A DNA stretch of 13,030 bases, taken from positions 1 to 13,030 of the forward strand of contig JAEWGQ010000095.1 of NCBI GenBank assembly GCA_023388235.1, in the 5' to 3' direction. The notes below the pieces were generated by a model. The model saw only the letters and a program-made list of their open reading frames with translations. It was not told where the DNA came from and ran no database searches. Origin of the DNA: Actinomycetes bacterium (GTDB taxonomy: Bacteria > Actinomycetota > Actinomycetes > Actinomycetales > Cellulomonadaceae). Below, in pieces: positions 662 through 12,625 of the stretch (its first letter is position 1; every line of letters starts with the position of its first letter). The position numbers and the translations under genes are program-made.

Positions 662-2023
662 ATGGACCGACGGATCTTCGGGCTGGAGACGGAGTACGGC
701 GTGACCTGCGCCGCCGAGGACGGGCGCGGCCTGTCGGCGGACGAGGTCGCCCGGTACCTGTTCCGCAAGGTGGTGGCGTGGGGCCGGTCGTCCAACGTGT
801 TCCTGCGCAACGGCTCGCGGCTGTACCTCGACGTCGGCTCGCACCCGGAGTACGCGACGGCGGAGTGCGACGACTGGCGCCAGCTCGTCACGCACGACCG
901 CGCGGGCGAGCGGATCCTCGAGGGGCTGGTGGCCGACGCGCAGCAGCGGCTGGAGCACGAGGGCCTGTCCGGGCGGATCCACCTGTTCAAGAACAACACC
1001 GACTCGGCGGGCAACTCCTACGGCTGCCACGAGAACTACCTGGTGCGCCGGCAGGGCGACTTCTCCCGGCTGTCGGACGTGCTGGTGCCGTTCCTCATCA
1101 CCCGCCAGGTGCTGACGGGCGCGGGCAAGGTGCTGGCCACGCCGCGCGGCGCGGTGTTCTGCCTGTCGCAGCGGGCCGACCACATCTGGGAGTCGGTGTC
1201 CTCGGCGACGACGCGGTCGCGCCCGATCATCAACACCCGGGACGAGCCGCACGCCGACGCGGAGCACTACCGGCGGCTGCACGTCATCGTCGGCGACTCC
1301 TCGATGTCCGAGACCACGACGATGCTCAAGGTCGGCAGCACGGACCTGGTGCTGCGGCTGATCGAGGCCGGCCTGCCGATGCGCGACCTCACGCTGGAGA
1401 ATCCGATCCGGGCGATCCGGGAGATCAGCCACGACGTGACCGGGACGCACCCCGTGACGCTGGCGACGGGGCGCACGGTCACCGCGGTGGACCTGCAGGA
1501 GGAGTACCTGGGACGCGTCCAGGACTGGGTGGCGCAGGAGACGGAGGCGGGGCCCGAGGTCAAGCAGGTGCTGGACCTGTGGGAGCGCGGGCTGCGCGCG
1601 CTGCGCACCGGGGACCTGTCGCTGGTGGAGCGCGAGCTGGACTGGGTGATCAAGTACCGCCTGATCGAGCGGTACCGCGCGAAGCACGGGCTGGACCTGT
1701 CGGACGTGCGGGTCGCGCGGATGGACCTGGCGTACCACGACATCTCCCGCACCGAGGGCCTGTACAACCTGCTGGCCCAGCGCGGGCTGGTGGAGCGGGT
1801 GACCACGGACGTCGAGGTGTTCGAGGCGACGTCGGTGCCCCCGCAGACCACCCGCGCGAAGCTGCGCGGGGAGTTCGTGCAGGCGGCCCAGGAGGCCCGG
1901 CGCGACTACACGGTGGACTGGGTGCACCTCAAGCTCAACGACCAGGCGCAGCGCACGGTGCTGTGCAAGGACCCCTTCCGCAACGTGGACGACCGGGTGG
2001 AGCGCCTCATCGAGTCCATGTGA
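662..2023 (+). CDS. pafA: Pup-protein ligase PafA
   Basis: Cytosolic ligase that uses ATP to join the C-terminal glutamate of Pup to substrate lysines, marking them for the proteasome. The 453 residues match the family length (M. tuberculosis PafA is about 452). The glutamine-synthetase-like fold is recognisable: N-terminal [12 protein letters not shown] with the metal-binding Glu9 region, [12 protein letters not shown], then [15 protein letters not shown], in which Asp57 sits at the position of the catalytic base. [37 protein letters not shown] and the C-terminal [22 protein letters not shown] are also intact. The ATG at 662 has GAGGGAG at 647-653, 8 nt upstream; the same frame is open further upstream, but that part overlaps prcA. 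The related deamidase/depupylase Dop shares this fold, but the adjacency to prcA and the near-collinear match favour PafA. Confidence 0.97.
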
Positions 2024-2053
2024 GGCGACCGGCCCGGCCCTGGTCCCGGCCCC

Positions 2054-2073
2054 GGGTCCGTCCGGACGGACCC
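2054..2073. promoter_or_regulatory. Perfect 20-bp palindrome downstream of pafA
   Basis: The sequence GGGTCCGTCCGGACGGACCC equals its own reverse complement with no mismatch; the flanking bases (C on both sides) break the symmetry. It lies 30 nt after the pafA stop and its centre falls where the -35 element of the FKBP-gene promoter would be (17-nt spacing from TACAGT at 2085-2090). It could be an operator for a dimeric regulator, or fold as an 8-bp stem with a CCGG loop and help end the pafA transcript. No T-run follows it. Seen: the symmetry and position. Inferred: either function. Confidence 0.5.
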
Positions 2074-2084
2074 CGCGGTGCCCG

Positions 2085-2090
2085 TACAGT
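2085..2090 (+). promoter_or_regulatory. Candidate -10 element (TACAGT) for the FKBP-hisF unit
   Basis: TACAGT fits the actinobacterial TAnnnT -10 pattern and would start transcription near 2097, giving a leader of about 32 nt before the GTG at 2129. No good -35 hexamer is visible; the -35 region is occupied by the palindrome at 2054-2073. Its presence also argues against the in-frame GTG at 2078 being the start. Confidence 0.45.
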
Positions 2091-2128
2091 GGGCGCCGGA
2101 TCTGTGCCGGACGCTGGGAAGGATCGAC

Positions 2129-3031
2129 GTGCGACGTCTCGTGGCCGCGTGCGCCGCCGCGGTGCTGCTGCTGGTGGGCTGCTCCTCGCAGGAGCCCGAG
2201 CCGCCGGAGGTGGTCGTCTCGGGCGACGCCGGCCAGGCACCGACCGTCACCTACCGGACGCCCCTGCGGGTGACCGACGCGCTGCACGAGGTGGTGTGGG
2301 AGGGCACGGGCCCCGAGCTGGAGGACGGCCGGCCCGTGCTGCTGGACTTCTGGCTGGAGGACGCCTCCGACGCCACGCTGGTCAAGGAGTCGTACACGTC
2401 GAGCCCGACGCCGCGGATGCTCACCGAGGAGGACCTCGGCAAGGACCTGTACGCCGCGCTGTCCGGCCAGCGGGTCGGCGCCCGGCTGCTGCAGATCAGC
2501 CCGGCGTCGTCGGCGAGCGCGTCGTCCTACCCGACGGTCACGGTGCTGGACGTGCTGCCGGTGCGGGCGGACGGCGAGCCCGTGCAGCCGCGCGAGGGCA
2601 TGCCCGCCGTCACGCTGGACGCCGACGGCGCGCCGTCGATCGCGCCGACCGGCACCGAGCCGCCGGCCGACCTGGTGGTGCAGCCGCTGATCCGCGGGAC
2701 GGGCGACCAGGTGGCCGAGGGCGACGTCATCACGGTGCAGTACACCGGGTTCGTCTGGGCCACGGGCGAGCCGTTCGACTCGACGTGGACCAACGGCAGC
2801 CCGCAGACGTTCTCGCTGTCCGACGTGCCGTCGTGGTCCGAGGCCCTGGTGGAGCAGTCCGTCGGCAGCCAGGTGATGGTGGTCGTGCCGCCGTCCTACG
2901 GGCTGGGCGCCACGGACAGCGAGGAGCTCGCCGGCCAGACCATCGTGTTCGTCATCGACCTGCTGGCGACGCGCGCCCCGGCGGCGGACGCCGCGGGCGG
3001 CGCGAGCACCGCCGCGCCCGAGGGGGAGTAG
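2129..3031 (+). CDS. Secreted FKBP-type peptidyl-prolyl isomerase lipoprotein
   Basis: Predicted lipid-anchored prolyl cis-trans isomerase acting outside the membrane. The GTG at 2129 is chosen because it has GGGAAGGA at 2116-2123 and begins a lipoprotein signal peptide directly: Arg-Arg, a hydrophobic stretch to residue 16, then the lipobox LVGC with Cys18 as lipidation site. Of 300 residues, about 181-282 form a normal FKBP domain ([38 protein letters not shown]). The aromatic pocket seems kept: Tyr205, Phe216, Asp217, Phe228, Trp236, Tyr257 and Phe274 correspond by motif to FKBP12 Tyr26, Phe36, Asp37, Phe46, Trp59, Tyr82 and Phe99. Residues about 40-146 look like a second, degenerate FKBP domain that has lost the Phe-Asp pair and the proline-tyrosine loop. 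An Ala/Pro-rich tail ends the protein. Placement after pafA is common in actinobacteria; hisF follows after 2 nt. Confidence 0.92.
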
Positions 3032-3033
3032 CC

Positions 3034-3804
<771 letters not shown>

Positions 3805-3856
3805 GCCGCCGGCGGGCGGACGGGCGCGCGGGGTGCACGCCGGGGCCCGGGCACGG

Positions 3857-3862
3857 CACGAT
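3857..3862 (+). promoter_or_regulatory. Possible -10 element (CACGAT) for a leaderless coaE
   Basis: CACGAT keeps the A at position 2 and T at position 6 of TAnnnT and ends 6 nt before the coaE ATG, the spacing expected when transcription begins at the start codon. No clear Shine-Dalgarno precedes that ATG. The match is weak, and the 64-nt gap holds no other obvious signal. Confidence 0.3.
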
Positions 3863-3868
3863 GGGGCG

Positions 3869-4498
3869 ATGCAGCGCATCGGACTGACCGGGGGGATCGC
3901 GGCGGGCAAGTCGGTCGCCGCGCAGCGGCTCGCGGAGCGCGGGGCGGTGGTGCTCGACTACGACGTCCTCGCGCGGGAGGCGGTCGCCCCCGGCTCGCCG
4001 GGGCTCGCGGACGTGGCCGAGGCGTTCGGCGCGGGGGTGCTCGCGGCCGACGGGACGCTGGACCGGCCCGCGCTGGCGGCCGTGGTGTTCGCGGACGACG
4101 CGGCGCGCGCCCGGCTGAACGGCATCGTGCACCCCGTGGTGCGCCGGCTGGCCGCCGAGCGGGAGGCCGCTGCCGCCGCCGCGGACGCGGGCGCCGTCGT
4201 GGTGCACGACGTGCCGCTGCTCGTCGAGTCGGGTGCCGCGGGCACGTTCCACCTCGTGGTGCTGGTCGAGGCCCCGGCGGTGCTGCGCGTCGAGCGCCTG
4301 GTGCGCTCGCGGGGCATGGACCGCGGCGAGGCGGAGCGGCGGATCGCCGCCCAGGCGCCGGACGAGGACCGGCGCGCCGTCGCGGACGTCGTGCTGGACG
4401 GGTCCGGCGCGCCCGAGGACCTGCAGGCGCAGGTGGACGCGCTGTGGGACCGGCTCGCCGCGGAGCGGGACGACGAGCAGGAGGTGGACGCCCCGTGA
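3869..4498 (+). CDS. coaE: Dephospho-CoA kinase
   Basis: Catalyses the last step of coenzyme A synthesis, ATP-dependent phosphorylation of the 3'-hydroxyl of dephospho-CoA, in the cytosol. The 209-residue protein begins MQRIGLTGGIAAGKS, with the P-loop at residues 8-15, followed by the substrate-binding segment VVLDYDVLAREAV and the conserved LNGIVHPVVR and VVHDVPLLVESG motifs (the latter typical of CoaE). The lid region holds RLVRSRGMDRGEAERRIAAQ. The ATG at 3869 is chosen over an in-frame GTG at 3833, which would add 12 residues before the P-loop strand that the family lacks. It consists of the kinase domain only; mycobacterial CoaE carries an extra C-terminal domain not found here. Its stop overlaps the start of pcp (GTGA). 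The coaE-uvrB neighbourhood is common in actinobacteria. Confidence 0.96.
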   Translation: MQRIGLTGGIAAGKSVAAQRLAERGAVVLDYDVLAREAVAPGSPGLADVAEAFGAGVLAADGTLDRPALAAVVFADDAARARLNGIVHPVVRRLAAEREAAAAAADAGAVVVHDVPLLVESGAAGTFHLVVLVEAPAVLRVERLVRSRGMDRGEAERRIAAQAPDEDRRAVADVVLDGSGAPEDLQAQVDALWDRLAAERDDEQEVDAP

Positions 4499-5256: not shown

Positions 5257-7362
<2,106 letters not shown>

Positions 7363-7366
7363 CCGG

Positions 7367-7392
7367 CGTGACGCGCGGCACGGCGCGTCACG
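7367..7392 (+). terminator. Hairpin terminator after uvrB
   Basis: A perfect 10-bp stem (CGTGACGCGC at 7367-7376 with GCGCGTCACG at 7383-7392) and a GGCACG loop starts 5 nt after the uvrB stop. No T-run follows, which is usual for actinobacterial hairpin terminators. It separates uvrB from the riboswitch-controlled terC transcript. Confidence 0.6.
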
Positions 7393-7417
7393 GGCTGTGC
7401 GCCTGGGACCGATGACC

Positions 7418-7423
7418 TATGCT
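7418..7423 (+). promoter_or_regulatory. Candidate -10 element (TATGCT) of the terC leader transcript
   Basis: TATGCT is the best TAnnnT in this spacer and would start RNA near 7430, just ahead of the aptamer's first strand at 7436. The -35 region (about 7394-7400) is weak. A GTGCGC at 7397-7402 and GCGCAC at 7425-7430 form a 6-bp inverted repeat around the -10; at this GC content it may be chance. Confidence 0.5.
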
Positions 7424-7435
7424 TGCGCACGCAGT

Positions 7436-7565
7436 GGAGGGGAGTATCCCGACACGACGCCCCCGTCATCACGGTCGCCTCCGTAGCCGGCCCGGGGTCG
7501 TCGGCCCGGCGGCGCCGGGTGGGAGAGACCTCCGGTACTCAGTCGTCTGTACCGGAGGGTGATCC
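7436..7565 (+). ncRNA. yybP-ykoY-type manganese riboswitch controlling terC translation
   Basis: This leader carries the two conserved blocks of the yybP-ykoY family: GGAGGGGAGTATCC at 7436-7449 and GGGAGAGACCTCC at 7521-7533. P1 pairs GGAGG (7436-7440) with CCTCC (7529-7533). An internal arm pairs CGACGCCCC (7455-7463) with GGGGTCGTCG (7494-7503, one bulged T), and a small hairpin, CCCGGC/GCCGGG, spans 7505-7519. The expression platform is a perfect 10-bp stem, CCTCCGGTAC (7529-7538) with GTACCGGAGG (7549-7558), whose 3' side holds the Shine-Dalgarno GGAGGG. The same CCTCC can therefore close P1 or hide the ribosome site, but not both. Known members bind Mn2+ through loops L1 and L3; here binding should stabilise P1 and turn translation on. 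The gene that follows is a TerC protein, a classic target of this riboswitch class. Confidence 0.88.
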
Positions 7566-8606
7566 ATGTCCGTGGACCTGTGGGTCTGGGTCGTGACAGC
7601 TGTCGCGATCGTCGGGATGCTCGTGTTCGACTTCTTCGCCCACGTGCGCACACCGCACGCGCCGTCGTTCCGCGAGGCCGCGACCTGGTCGGCGGTGTAC
7701 ATCGGCCTGGCGATCGTCTTCGGCATCGGCCTGGGCGTCGTCTGGGGCTGGGGCCACGGCACGGAGTACTTCGCGGGGTACGTCACCGAGAAGAGCCTCT
7801 CGGTCGACAACCTCTTCGTCTTCCTCATCATCATGACGAAGTTCGCGGTGCCCCGGGAGTTCCAGCAGAAGGTGCTGCTGGTCGGCGTCGCGATCGCGCT
7901 GGTGCTGCGGACCGTGTTCATCCTGCTCGGCGCCGCCGCGATCGAGCAGTGGTCGTGGGTGTTCTACCTGTTCGGCGCGTTCCTCGTGTACACCGGCATC
8001 AAGCTGGCGCGGGAGAAGCACGACGAGGGCGAGCTGGAGCACGCCGGCGAGCGGAACGACGGCCTGGCCGTGACGCTGCTGAAGAAGGTGCTGCCCACCA
8101 CGGAGGAGTACCACGGCGACCGGCTGACGACCCGCGTCGACGGCAAGCGCCTCATCACGCCGATGCTCATGGTGATGGTCGCGATCGGCGCCACCGACGT
8201 GCTGTTCGCGCTCGACTCGATCCCGGCGATCTACGGCCTGACGCAGGAGCCGTACATCGTGTTCACCGCCAACGCGTTCGCCCTGCTCGGCCTGCGCCAG
8301 CTGTACTTCCTGATCGGCGGCCTGCTGGAGCGCCTGGTGTACCTGAACAAGGGCCTCGCGTTCATCCTGGCGTTCATCGGCCTGAAGCTCGTGTTCCACG
8401 CCATGCACGTCAACGAGCTGCCGTTCCTCAACGGCGGCGAGCACATCGACTGGGCGCCCGAGATCCCCACGTGGCTCTCGCTGCTCGTGATCCTCGGTAC
8501 GCTCACCGTCGCCACCGTCGCGAGCCTGGCGAAGACCAGGCGGGACCGCGACGCCGCCCCGGCCGCCGTGGCCGCCGCGGAGGAGCCCGTCACCGAGGAG
8601 CACTGA
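7566..8606 (+). CDS. TerC-family integral membrane protein, probable Mn2+ exporter (first copy)
   Basis: Polytopic membrane protein of the TerC/Alx family; characterised members export manganese or help metallate exported proteins, and the family name comes from tellurite resistance. The 346 residues hold about nine hydrophobic segments. Family motifs with membrane-embedded acids are intact: Asp22 in VFDFF, TEKSLSVDNLFVF with Glu75 and Asp81, IGATD (Asp211) and ALDSIPA (Asp217). A polar loop at about 155-185 divides the two halves; a charged cytoplasmic tail closes it. The ATG at 7566 has GGAGGG 6 nt upstream, buried in the riboswitch platform. A second TerC gene follows after 4 nt. Export of manganese is inferred from the family and, strongly, from the riboswitch; no tellurite genes are nearby. 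Confidence 0.93.
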   Translation: MSVDLWVWVVTAVAIVGMLVFDFFAHVRTPHAPSFREAATWSAVYIGLAIVFGIGLGVVWGWGHGTEYFAGYVTEKSLSVDNLFVFLIIMTKFAVPREFQQKVLLVGVAIALVLRTVFILLGAAAIEQWSWVFYLFGAFLVYTGIKLAREKHDEGELEHAGERNDGLAVTLLKKVLPTTEEYHGDRLTTRVDGKRLITPMLMVMVAIGATDVLFALDSIPAIYGLTQEPYIVFTANAFALLGLRQLYFLIGGLLERLVYLNKGLAFILAFIGLKLVFHAMHVNELPFLNGGEHIDWAPEIPTWLSLLVILGTLTVATVASLAKTRRDRDAAPAAVAAAEEPVTEEH

Positions 8607-11179: not shown

Positions 11180-12532
11180 TCAGCCGCCGATCTCCTCCGC
11201 GCAGCTCATCGCGAACTCCACGCGGCCGCCGCAGGTCCCGCCGAAGTCCTCGTACTCGCTGCCGCCCGGCGAGCCCCAGTACAGGTCGTCGCACGCGGTG
11301 CCGCTGCCCCCGGCGCAGGCGTCCCAGAGCGCGTCGAGCGCCGGGTCGGAGCCGTAGCCCTGGGCGTCGGTGCTGCCGGTGTCCGGCTCGACCGCGTCCT
11401 CGGCGCAGAGGTCGCCGCCGGCCGCCTGGCCGCCGCAGGTGTCGCCGAACTCCTCGTACTCGGAGCCCGACGGCGCGCTCATGTACAGCGTGTCGCACGC
11501 CGCGCCGTCACCGGCCTCGCAGGCGTCCCACAGCGCGTCGAGCTGCGGGTTGTCGCCGTAGGTGAACGACAGCGTCCCGGTGTCGTCGGCCAGCGACTCG
11601 CAGTAGCTGCCGCCGTCGGTCCGCCCGCCGCAGGTGTCGCCGAACTCCTCGTCGTCGGACCCGGCCGGCGCGTCGCGGAACAGGCGGTCGCACGCCGCCA
11701 TGTCGCCGGACGCGCAGTCCGAGCGCAGGTCGTCCAGGTGGCCGTTGTACGCCTGGATCCCGAGCACCACGACGATGGCGATGATGATGCCGGCGACGAT
11801 CTCGAGCGCACCGAGCACGATGCCCGCGATCGCGAGGCCGCGGCCCTGGGTGCCGTCCCGCTTGGTGCGGCGCAGGCCGAGGATGCCGAGGACGAGCGGC
11901 ACGACGCCGAGGCCCAGCAGGCCGGTGACGAGCGCCGCGATGGACACGCCGTCGGTGCGTCCGGTCGCCGGCGGCGGGTACTGGCCCTGGCCGTAGCCAC
12001 CGGGTGCCGGCGGGTAGCCGCCGCCCGGGGGGTAGCTGCCGCCGTAGCCGCCCTGCGCCGTCCCCGTGGTCGCGCCGGGCTGGCCGTACGCGTCGGGCTG
12101 GGGGTACGCGCCCGGGTGCTGGCCGGAGGGCGCGGGCTGCTCGGGGCTGCCCGGGTAGCCGGGCCCGCCGGAGGCCCCGGCGCCGGACGCCGCGGGCGGC
12201 GCGTACCCGGGCTGCGGGTAGCCGGCGGGCTCGCCGTAGCCCGGCTGCGGGTACCCGGCGGGCTGGCCGTAGCCGGGCTGCGGGTAGCCGGCGGGCCGCT
12301 GCTCGTCGCCCTGACCGGGGCGGGCCTCGCCCTGCTGGGCGATCGGGGTGGTCGGCGCGTCGCCCTGCTGCGCGATCGGCGTGGTGGGCGCCTCGGCCCA
12401 GCCGGAGGTCGGCGTCGCCTCGTACCCGGACGGCGCGGGCGCCTCGGGTCGCTGTGCCGCGTCCGGGGCCGGCCAGGTGGGCTGGTCGGGTTCGCGGCCC
12501 GGCTCGGGCGCCGCGGTGCCGTCGTTCGACAT
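11180..12532 (-). CDS. DUF4190-type membrane protein with Pro/Gly/Tyr-rich head and three Cys4 repeats
   Basis: A 450-residue protein of unknown function. Residues 1-192 are disordered, rich in Pro, Gly, Gln and Tyr, with two copies of APTTPIAQQG[D/E] (48-69) and three of GYPQPGY-x2-PA (82-114). Two hydrophobic helices (about 196-220 and 233-260), joined by basic RRTKRDGTQGRG, match the DUF4190 pattern common in actinobacteria. The tail (266-450) has three repeats with Cys at 273/281/301/311, 338/346/366/376 and 406/414/434/444; the spacing 8-20-10 is identical in each. A consensus is C-x2-G-x4-ACD-x-L, then GS-x2-E-x-FG-x-TCGG. Disulfides or metal binding are possible. Topology (both ends on the same side) follows from two helices but the side is unclear. 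The ATG at 12532 has GAAGGA 6 nt upstream; upstream codons of the same open frame lack a ribosome site. The gene upstream on this strand is a hydrolase, 93 nt away. Confidence 0.85.
   Translation of the reverse strand: MSNDGTAAPEPGREPDQPTWPAPDAAQRPEAPAPSGYEATPTSGWAEAPTTPIAQQGDAPTTPIAQQGEARPGQGDEQRPAGYPQPGYGQPAGYPQPGYGEPAGYPQPGYAPPAASGAGASGGPGYPGSPEQPAPSGQHPGAYPQPDAYGQPGATTGTAQGGYGGSYPPGGGYPPAPGGYGQGQYPPPATGRTDGVSIAALVTGLLGLGVVPLVLGILGLRRTKRDGTQGRGLAIAGIVLGALEIVAGIIIAIVVVLGIQAYNGHLDDLRSDCASGDMAACDRLFRDAPAGSDDEEFGDTCGGRTDGGSYCESLADDTGTLSFTYGDNPQLDALWDACEAGDGAACDTLYMSAPSGSEYEEFGDTCGGQAAGGDLCAEDAVEPDTGSTDAQGYGSDPALDALWDACAGGSGTACDDLYWGSPGGSEYEDFGGTCGGRVEFAMSCAEEIGG
11201..11737 (-). repeat. Three in-gene copies of a Cys4 module
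   Basis: Coding copies of 138 nt lie at 11600-11737, 11405-11542 and 11201-11338 in protein order. Each encodes 46 residues with four cysteines at fixed spacing. The linkers between copies (19 and 22 residues) are Asp/Thr/Gly-rich and unlike each other. The second and third copies are closest (LDALWDAC, then SEYE[E/D]FG), suggesting the most recent duplication. Confidence 0.85.
12191..12289 (-). repeat. Three 33-nt units encoding GYPQPGY-x2-PA
   Basis: Three adjacent 11-residue units, GYPQPGYGQPA, GYPQPGYGEPA and GYPQPGYAPPA, in the disordered head of the DUF4190-type protein. The DNA is nearly identical between units, so copy number could vary between strains. Confidence 0.85.
12326..12391 (-). 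repeat. Two 33-nt units encoding APTTPIAQQG[D/E]
   Basis: Two adjacent 11-residue units differing only in the last residue (Asp or Glu). The Thr-Thr-Pro core would suit phosphorylation by Ser/Thr kinases, a guess from sequence only. Confidence 0.8.
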
Positions 12533-12583
12533 GGAGGTTCCTTCGCGTCGTGTGGAGATGTCGTGTGGGAAAGTCCGTGCGCC

Positions 12584-12589
12584 ACTATC
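12584..12589 (-). promoter_or_regulatory. Possible -10 element (GATAGT) for the DUF4190-type gene
   Basis: On the minus strand GATAGT keeps A2 and T6 of TATAAT and would start RNA near 12577, leaving a leader of about 45 nt with a GAAGGA ribosome site. No convincing -35 is visible. The 93-nt gap to the upstream hydrolase gene shows nothing else recognisable. Confidence 0.35.
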
Positions 12590-12625
12590 GCAGACGGGGT
12601 CGCCGGAGGGGCGGGGTGTCCGCAC

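Follow-up and report, generated by a model that had tools for sequence, protein, structure and literature searches.

Positions 7436-7533 of the analysed stretch of actinobacterial DNA (13,030 nucleotides, hereafter the window) very probably form the aptamer of an alx-type yybP-ykoY Mn2+ riboswitch, a P2-less three-way junction that acts as a translational ON switch for terC. Homology and gene context suggest Mn2+ as the ligand of the window aptamer. We further infer the direction of the switch (ON), its effect at translation instead of at the RNA level, and the function of the window TerC. The analysis adds two things to what is known of this family: a blind spot of the database and a testable exchange of the Shine-Dalgarno (SD) strand.

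Leader architecture and covariation

In the window, the riboswitch leader is situated between uvrB and terC. The start codon of terC (ATG at 7566) follows 7 nt 3' of the SD. Features of the locus are given below as position, strand and description.

10-648, +, ORF with proteasome-subunit domain
778-3804, +, long ORF with HisF in its C-terminal part
3833-4498, +, CoaE
5257-7362, +, uvrB, gene 5' of the leader
7418-7423, +, -10-like TATGCT, 18 nt 5' of P1.1
7436-7440, +, P1.1 5' strand GGAGG, identical in sequence to the SD; covarying pairs with 7529-7533
7439-7446, +, GGGGAGUA block, 3' of the P1.1 5' strand; forms L1 with the GAGACC block
7441-7446, +, L1 GGAGUA, conserved in 85 of the 90 leaders found by model
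7447-7450, +, P1.2 5' strand UCCC, pairs with 7521-7524; U-A/C-G and C-G/U-A/G-C exchanges
7455-7462, +, P3.1 5' side, 7455-7459 with 7499-7503 and 7461-7462 with 7496-7497; covaries
7463-7472, +, L3 5' side CCGUCAUCAC, with CA at 7467-7468 in 90 of 90 leaders; E. coli alx is ungapped here
7473-7492, +, P3.2 hairpin, 7473-7477 with 7488-7492; covaries
7493-7495, +, L3 3' side CGG, from structure and alx alignment
7505-7519, +, P4 hairpin, 7505-7509 with 7515-7519; covaries
7521-7528, +, P1.2 3' strand GGGA and L1 3' side GAGA, from alignment and covariation
7525-7530, +, GAGACC block, at the P1.1 3' strand
7529-7533, +, switching strand CCUCC, part of P1.1 (3' strand) in the ON state and anti-SD in the OFF state
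7529-7558, +, OFF hairpin, perfect 10 bp with 10-nt loop, 7529-7538 with 7549-7558; -18.1 kcal/mol alone
7554-7558, +, SD GGAGG of terC
7566-8606, +, terC (P0001), TerC/Alx family; PF03741 175.4 bits, TIGR03718 'R_switched_Alx' 387.6 bits
9902-11128, +, acyl-CoA-dehydrogenase-like
11180-12625, -, DUF4190 protein

The aptamer is composed of P1.1, L1, P1.2, P3.1, L3, P3.2 and P4. P2, the helix of four-way junctions, is absent both from the window and from the 104-position consensus of related leaders, therefore the junction is a three-way one. Within L3, A7468 is presumably the Mn-binding adenosine; it probably corresponds to A41 of Lactococcus lactis and A48 of Xanthomonas oryzae. As placed by TATGCT at 7418-7423, the transcript probably starts at about the 5' end of the aptamer. 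TAnnnT occurs within 40 nt 5' of P1.1 in 74 of 79 terC loci (best 80 of 165 relatives), whereas a control stretch contains it in 1 of 79; its distance to P1.1 in these loci (best 80 of 165) is mostly 14-18 nt. Consensus scan detected no sigma-70 promoter in 7300-7650; it is the -10-like TAnnnT alone that has comparative support.

Relatives were collected by TerC protein search of genome contigs, which retrieved 165 of them; the best 80 were kept. Among these best 80 of 165, 79 loci are titled Actinobacteria and 35 are titled Curtobacterium. Sequence-pattern search located both conserved blocks upstream of terC in 79 of the 80 loci (best 80 of 165), block identity in this set being partly by construction because the pattern contains GGAGTA and GAGAC/AAGAC. 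Identity of CGUCA in L3, determined in a set of 52 leaders, is independent of the pattern. L062 is the only terC locus among the best 80 of 165 without the leader. Locus L014, titled 'Proteobacteria bacterium', carries an actinobacterial leader and a terC 73% identical to that of the window; its genome bin is probably mislabelled.

The alignment of 52 leaders comprises 51 of the 79 and the window; it was thinned for Curtobacterium and not fitted to structure. Standard pairs make up 87.4% of the pair cells in this alignment, and 21 of 26 pairs display change on both sides. Cells changed on both sides number 268 versus 96.2 in shuffles, and none of 500 shuffles reaches 268. When partners are slid, the paired share falls to 39-54%.

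From the 52 actinobacterial terC leaders a covariance model (R1, with a 104-position consensus) was built and run on 296 Actinomycetota genomes drawn evenly. At E<=0.01 it detected at least 94 places in at least 69 of the 296 genomes; 13 candidates were scored per genome, thus these counts are lower bounds. Leaders were fetched for 90 of the 94 places, and 86 have a readable downstream frame (L093, L109, L113 and L165 were dropped). The 90 model-found leaders, all from other genomes, are 92.7% paired with 536 both-side changes versus 149.2 in shuffles, in an alignment that was fitted to structure and so leans towards it. Of these 90 leaders, 85 retain GGAGUA and 88 retain GAGAC or AAGAC; the CA of L3 is invariant. 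In both sets the P1.1/P1.2 leg covaries; the P3 leg with the invariable L3 adenosine is present, and P3.1 and P3.2 covary. Folding energy by itself is unremarkable and uninformative: for 7420-7570 z is -0.63, and 43 of 200 shuffled sequences reach an equal or better value.

Competition for the Shine-Dalgarno strand

The preliminary description proposed that CCTCC (7529-7533) pairs either with GGAGG of P1 (7436-7440) or, within a 10-bp stem, with GGAGG of the terC SD (7554-7558), the two states being mutually exclusive. All these coordinates are exact, and the proposal is supported by covariation, by comparison of stems and by permutations. We scored as SD type any stem of at least 5 pairs that begins at the first base of the P1.1 3' strand and leaves 4-10 nt to the start codon. 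Such a stem is present in 64 of 80 terC leaders (window included; relatives from the best 80 of 165). Competition of the aptamer strand and the SD for one partner is conserved among terC relatives to this extent (64 of 80; relatives from the best 80 of 165).

Occurrence of the stem depends on the P1.1 3' strand: it is found with CCUCC in 19 of 21 leaders, with CCUUC in 41 of 41, with CUUUC in 4 of 4 and with other strands in 0 of 14. The SD side tracks the strand, since CCUCC is matched by GGAGG, CCUUC by GAAGG or GGAGG, and CUUUC by GAAAG. Stems of at least 7 pairs are formed by 81% of strands with their own partner, by 13% with a partner from another class and by 3% with shuffled tails. In 52 of the 64 terC leaders of SD type (from the best 80 of 165), P1.1 has a 5' strand identical to the SD partner. 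Because the P1.1 5' strand of the window has the letters of the SD, the switch would amount to passing a single 5-nt strand from one of two identical partners to the other. This layout is simple, and few point changes suffice as a test.

In the phylum sample (n=86), 53 leaders are of SD type, 3 of terminator type and 30 other. Permutation of partners among the 73 non-GDT1 loci, which ignores kinship, reached the observed pairing in 0 of 2000 cases. The same test with the 13 GDT1 loci reached it in 1956 of 2000, which suggests that GDT1 leaders operate otherwise. In 10 of these 13 the hairpin of the P1.1 strand ends 39-51 nt before the chosen start. Leaders of the GDT1 type are those of L134, L140, L146, L147, L148, L157, L168, L170-L174 and L180; in L134, L140 and L168 a second hairpin holds the SD, as judged by eye. 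As a universal rule, simple SD pairing was rejected: it fails in 16 of 80 terC leaders and in 33 of 86 phylum leaders. The terC leaders without a simple SD stem are the 14 with other P1.1 strands (12 titled Micrococcaceae), L067 and L072.

For the family, Mn2+ is described as docking L1 on L3 via the invariable adenosine and thereby stabilising P1.1 against strand invasion (PMC6754395). In the window leader, the invader of P1.1 would be the SD. At low Mn2+ the CCUCC of the P1.1 3' strand would pair with the SD in the 10-bp hairpin, the ribosome would be excluded and terC would be off. At high Mn2+, L1 would dock on L3, and the stabilised P1.1 would retake CCUCC. Formation of P1.1 would open the lower half of the hairpin and set the SD free, while the upper half (GGUAC/GUACC) may stay. 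TerC would then be made at high Mn2+ and would export Mn.

Energies were calculated with a model that contains neither tertiary contacts nor a bound ion. With the aptamer core kept, OFF lies below ON in 63 of 64 leaders, by 4.5 kcal/mol on average. In the window, OFF is favoured by 1.6 kcal/mol for the shorter fragment and by 4.4 kcal/mol for the longer one. The modelled energies fit a default-OFF switch. When folded without constraint, the window leader is 11.6 kcal/mol more stable than in its best structure containing P1.1 (set mean 8.5), so the ON state would need the ion, tertiary contacts or folding order.

Translational rather than transcriptional control, as originally predicted, gains comparative support. 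We consider it unlikely that the same riboswitch acts chiefly by premature end of transcription, through Rho or a GC-rich hairpin without U-tract, with SD occlusion being secondary. Terminators do occur in 3 of 86 phylum relatives, most clearly in the low-GC L129, and one is seen by eye in L113 (no readable frame, outside the 86); moreover, in GDT1 leaders the hairpin of the P1.1 strand lies at a distance from the SD. However, no intrinsic terminator-like site was detected in 7300-7650, the OFF stem of the window is followed by GUGAUCC and not by U's, and in 64 of 80 terC leaders (from the best 80 of 165) the switching strand pairs with the SD itself, in a stem that ends 4-10 nt short of the start codon.

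Family assignment and known relatives

Assignment to the yybP-ykoY family, made in the preliminary description from conserved blocks, is supported by covariation and by the match of R1 to E. coli alx. The alx leader, which lies outside the training set, scored 56.3 bits (E 1.5e-11 in 50.9 kb) with ungapped core. Since R1 finds alx, a yybP-ykoY riboswitch, we file the window element as yybP-ykoY, alx type, despite RF00080 remaining below cut-off and despite the absence of P2. The window itself scores 95.7 bits with R1, which is circular because the window belongs to the training set. Among 19 comparison loci, R1 matched 16 at E<=0.01; nothing was listed for E. coli mntP (L181), L186 and L190. 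Three actinobacterial loci (L081, L082, L087) have further Mn-riboswitch-like leaders of GGGGAGUAGC / CGACA type, and that of L081 possesses a P2-like hairpin by eye.

The preliminary description had chosen the Rfam yybP-ykoY covariance model as a check and lack of a hit as grounds for refutation. By that formal standard the assignment falls, yet Rfam lists no match at alx either. The Rfam 15 model RF00080 has 177 positions and a cut-off of 45 bits. Rfam 15 gave no match in the window at cut-off. RF00080 was likewise absent from 7350-7620 at E<=10, from 20 loci scanned out of the 80 terC loci (best 80 of 165) at cut-off, where two tRNAs were the only Rfam hits, and from 20 loci scanned out of the 90 of the phylum sample at E<=10. 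In E. coli K-12, RF00080 gave the leader of mntP 41.6 bits, which is below the cut-off of 45, and left the alx leader unlisted at E<=1. In the RF00080 consensus, as seen in two printed alignments, the GGGGAGUA block is unpaired and P1 is missing. Rfam is unreliable as refutation here because the alx leader is also unlisted and RF00080 as printed lacks P1. Its cut-off is set for database purposes and does not describe a biological property.

E. coli alx is described as a yybP-ykoY riboswitch activated by Mn and alkaline pH (PMC9603457; PMC12096827). Its whole leader is aligned by R1 with ungapped core AAAGGGGAGUA, CGUCAUUACG, CCGG and GAGACCU; it also lacks P2 and precedes a gene of the same family. 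P4 and the stretch from P1.1 to the start codon are longer in alx. A pH response is known for alx only (PMC9603457). E. coli mntP, in which Mn turns translation on according to the same source (PMC9603457), shares the GGGGAGUA and GCGAGACC blocks with the window. It differs by a P2-like hairpin after GGGGAGUAGCC (by eye), by the absence of an R1 match and by its RF00080 score of 41.6 bits.

Solved aptamer structures of X. oryzae and L. lactis share the P1.1 switch helix, L1-L3 docking and 3' GAGACC with the window (PMC6754395) but form a four-way junction with P2 and have transcriptional output. The streptococcal mgtA leader, described as a yybP-ykoY three-way junction (PMC9495176), makes the absence of P2 not new. 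It differs from the window in preceding a P-type ATPase gene and in transcriptional activation by Ca2+ and Mn2+ (same source). In Corynebacterium glutamicum, an RF00080 leader of 49.13 bits with observed transcript is given for terC (cg2157; PMC3890552). Unlike the window, it was scored with the older Rfam of 2013, and it is likened here by description, not by sequence. The family, the ON logic, an actinobacterial terC member (PMC3890552) and three-way-junction members (PMC9495176) are thus already known. An open-access literature search, in itself weak evidence, returned no statement on the Rfam gap or on an HtpX/M50 link, and SD-copy strand exchange as a recurring design was not met there.

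Distribution in Actinomycetota and downstream genes

We give about equal credence and doubt to a wider proposal: that the alx-type P2-less Mn2+ riboswitch is widespread in Actinomycetota, mostly works by a 5-nt strand trade with an SD copied in the aptamer, is nearly invisible to Rfam, and has a regulon that includes HtpX and M50 site-2 type metalloproteases, which would link an excess of Mn to quality control of membrane proteins. In the 296 genomes where R1 gave the counts above, RF00080 (8 candidates scored per genome, thus also lower bounds) matched at least 13 genomes at E<=0.01 and at least 1 above cut-off. When more candidates were scored in 41 of the 296, R1 matched 14 of 41; RF00080 matched 2 at E<=0.01 and none above its cut-off. 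In 18 genomes holding a terC locus, RF00080 passes cut-off in none. R1 matches all 18 (29 places at E<=1e-4, the next at 0.036), a result close to circular because training sequences come from 16 of these genomes. Annotation based on Rfam 15 misses most such actinobacterial switches (at least 1 versus at least 69 of 296 genomes). A family model including the P1 helix would map Mn regulons over a phylum with soil-dwelling, industrial and medically relevant members.

Genes downstream of the 86 readable leaders were grouped by single-linkage clustering into TerC (48), P-type ATPase (13), GDT1 (13), Na/Ca exchanger (5), M48 (HtpX-like, 3), M50 (2), purC (1) and no family (1). Pfam was run on one representative per cluster except TerC. 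Direct blastp match to P0001 or to the cluster representative was obtained for TerC 48/48, P-type ATPase 13/13, GDT1 13/13, Na/Ca exchanger 4/5 and M48 3/3. Genes of the first four groups follow 79 of the 86 leaders. Mn efflux systems include UPF0016/GDT1, P-type ATPases and TerC (PMC13274385); the downstream gene set is largely that of Mn homeostasis.

These targets bear on whether Mn2+ is the main cue. That the same fold responds mainly to another ion or to alkaline pH seems quite improbable to us, still more so than premature end of transcription. The alx reporter is stated to respond to pH 8.5 on its own and most strongly to the two cues together (PMC9603457), the streptococcal member also binds Ca2+ (PMC9495176), and Na/Ca exchanger genes are among the targets. 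Against this, TerC, GDT1 and P-type ATPases are known Mn efflux families (PMC13274385), and the CA of L3 is present in 90 of 90 leaders. Scarcely credible is the notion that the GGAGG repeats flank a GC-rich leader by chance and do not constitute a switch: lack of an Rfam match and the folding z of -0.63 would suit it, but covariation, far above shuffles and slides, rules out chance origin of the leader structure, R1 matches alx in another phylum, and the SD side changes along with the P1.1 strand.

Five Mn-riboswitch-like leaders precede membrane metalloproteases, not transporters: M48/HtpX-like in L151, L153 and L156, and M50 in L136 and L144. The element begins at 1501 in each (strand-wise locus coordinates). 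TerC proteins of Bacillus subtilis are reported to co-purify with HtpX and FtsH (PMC10550928), therefore a link between Mn excess and membrane quality control is conceivable.

Finally, two R1 elements stand back to back in opposite directions, 78 bp apart (G010 C3:291651-291747 (-) and 291826-291920 (+); locus L206). This pair belongs to the genome of locus L055 (Microbacterium ihumii).
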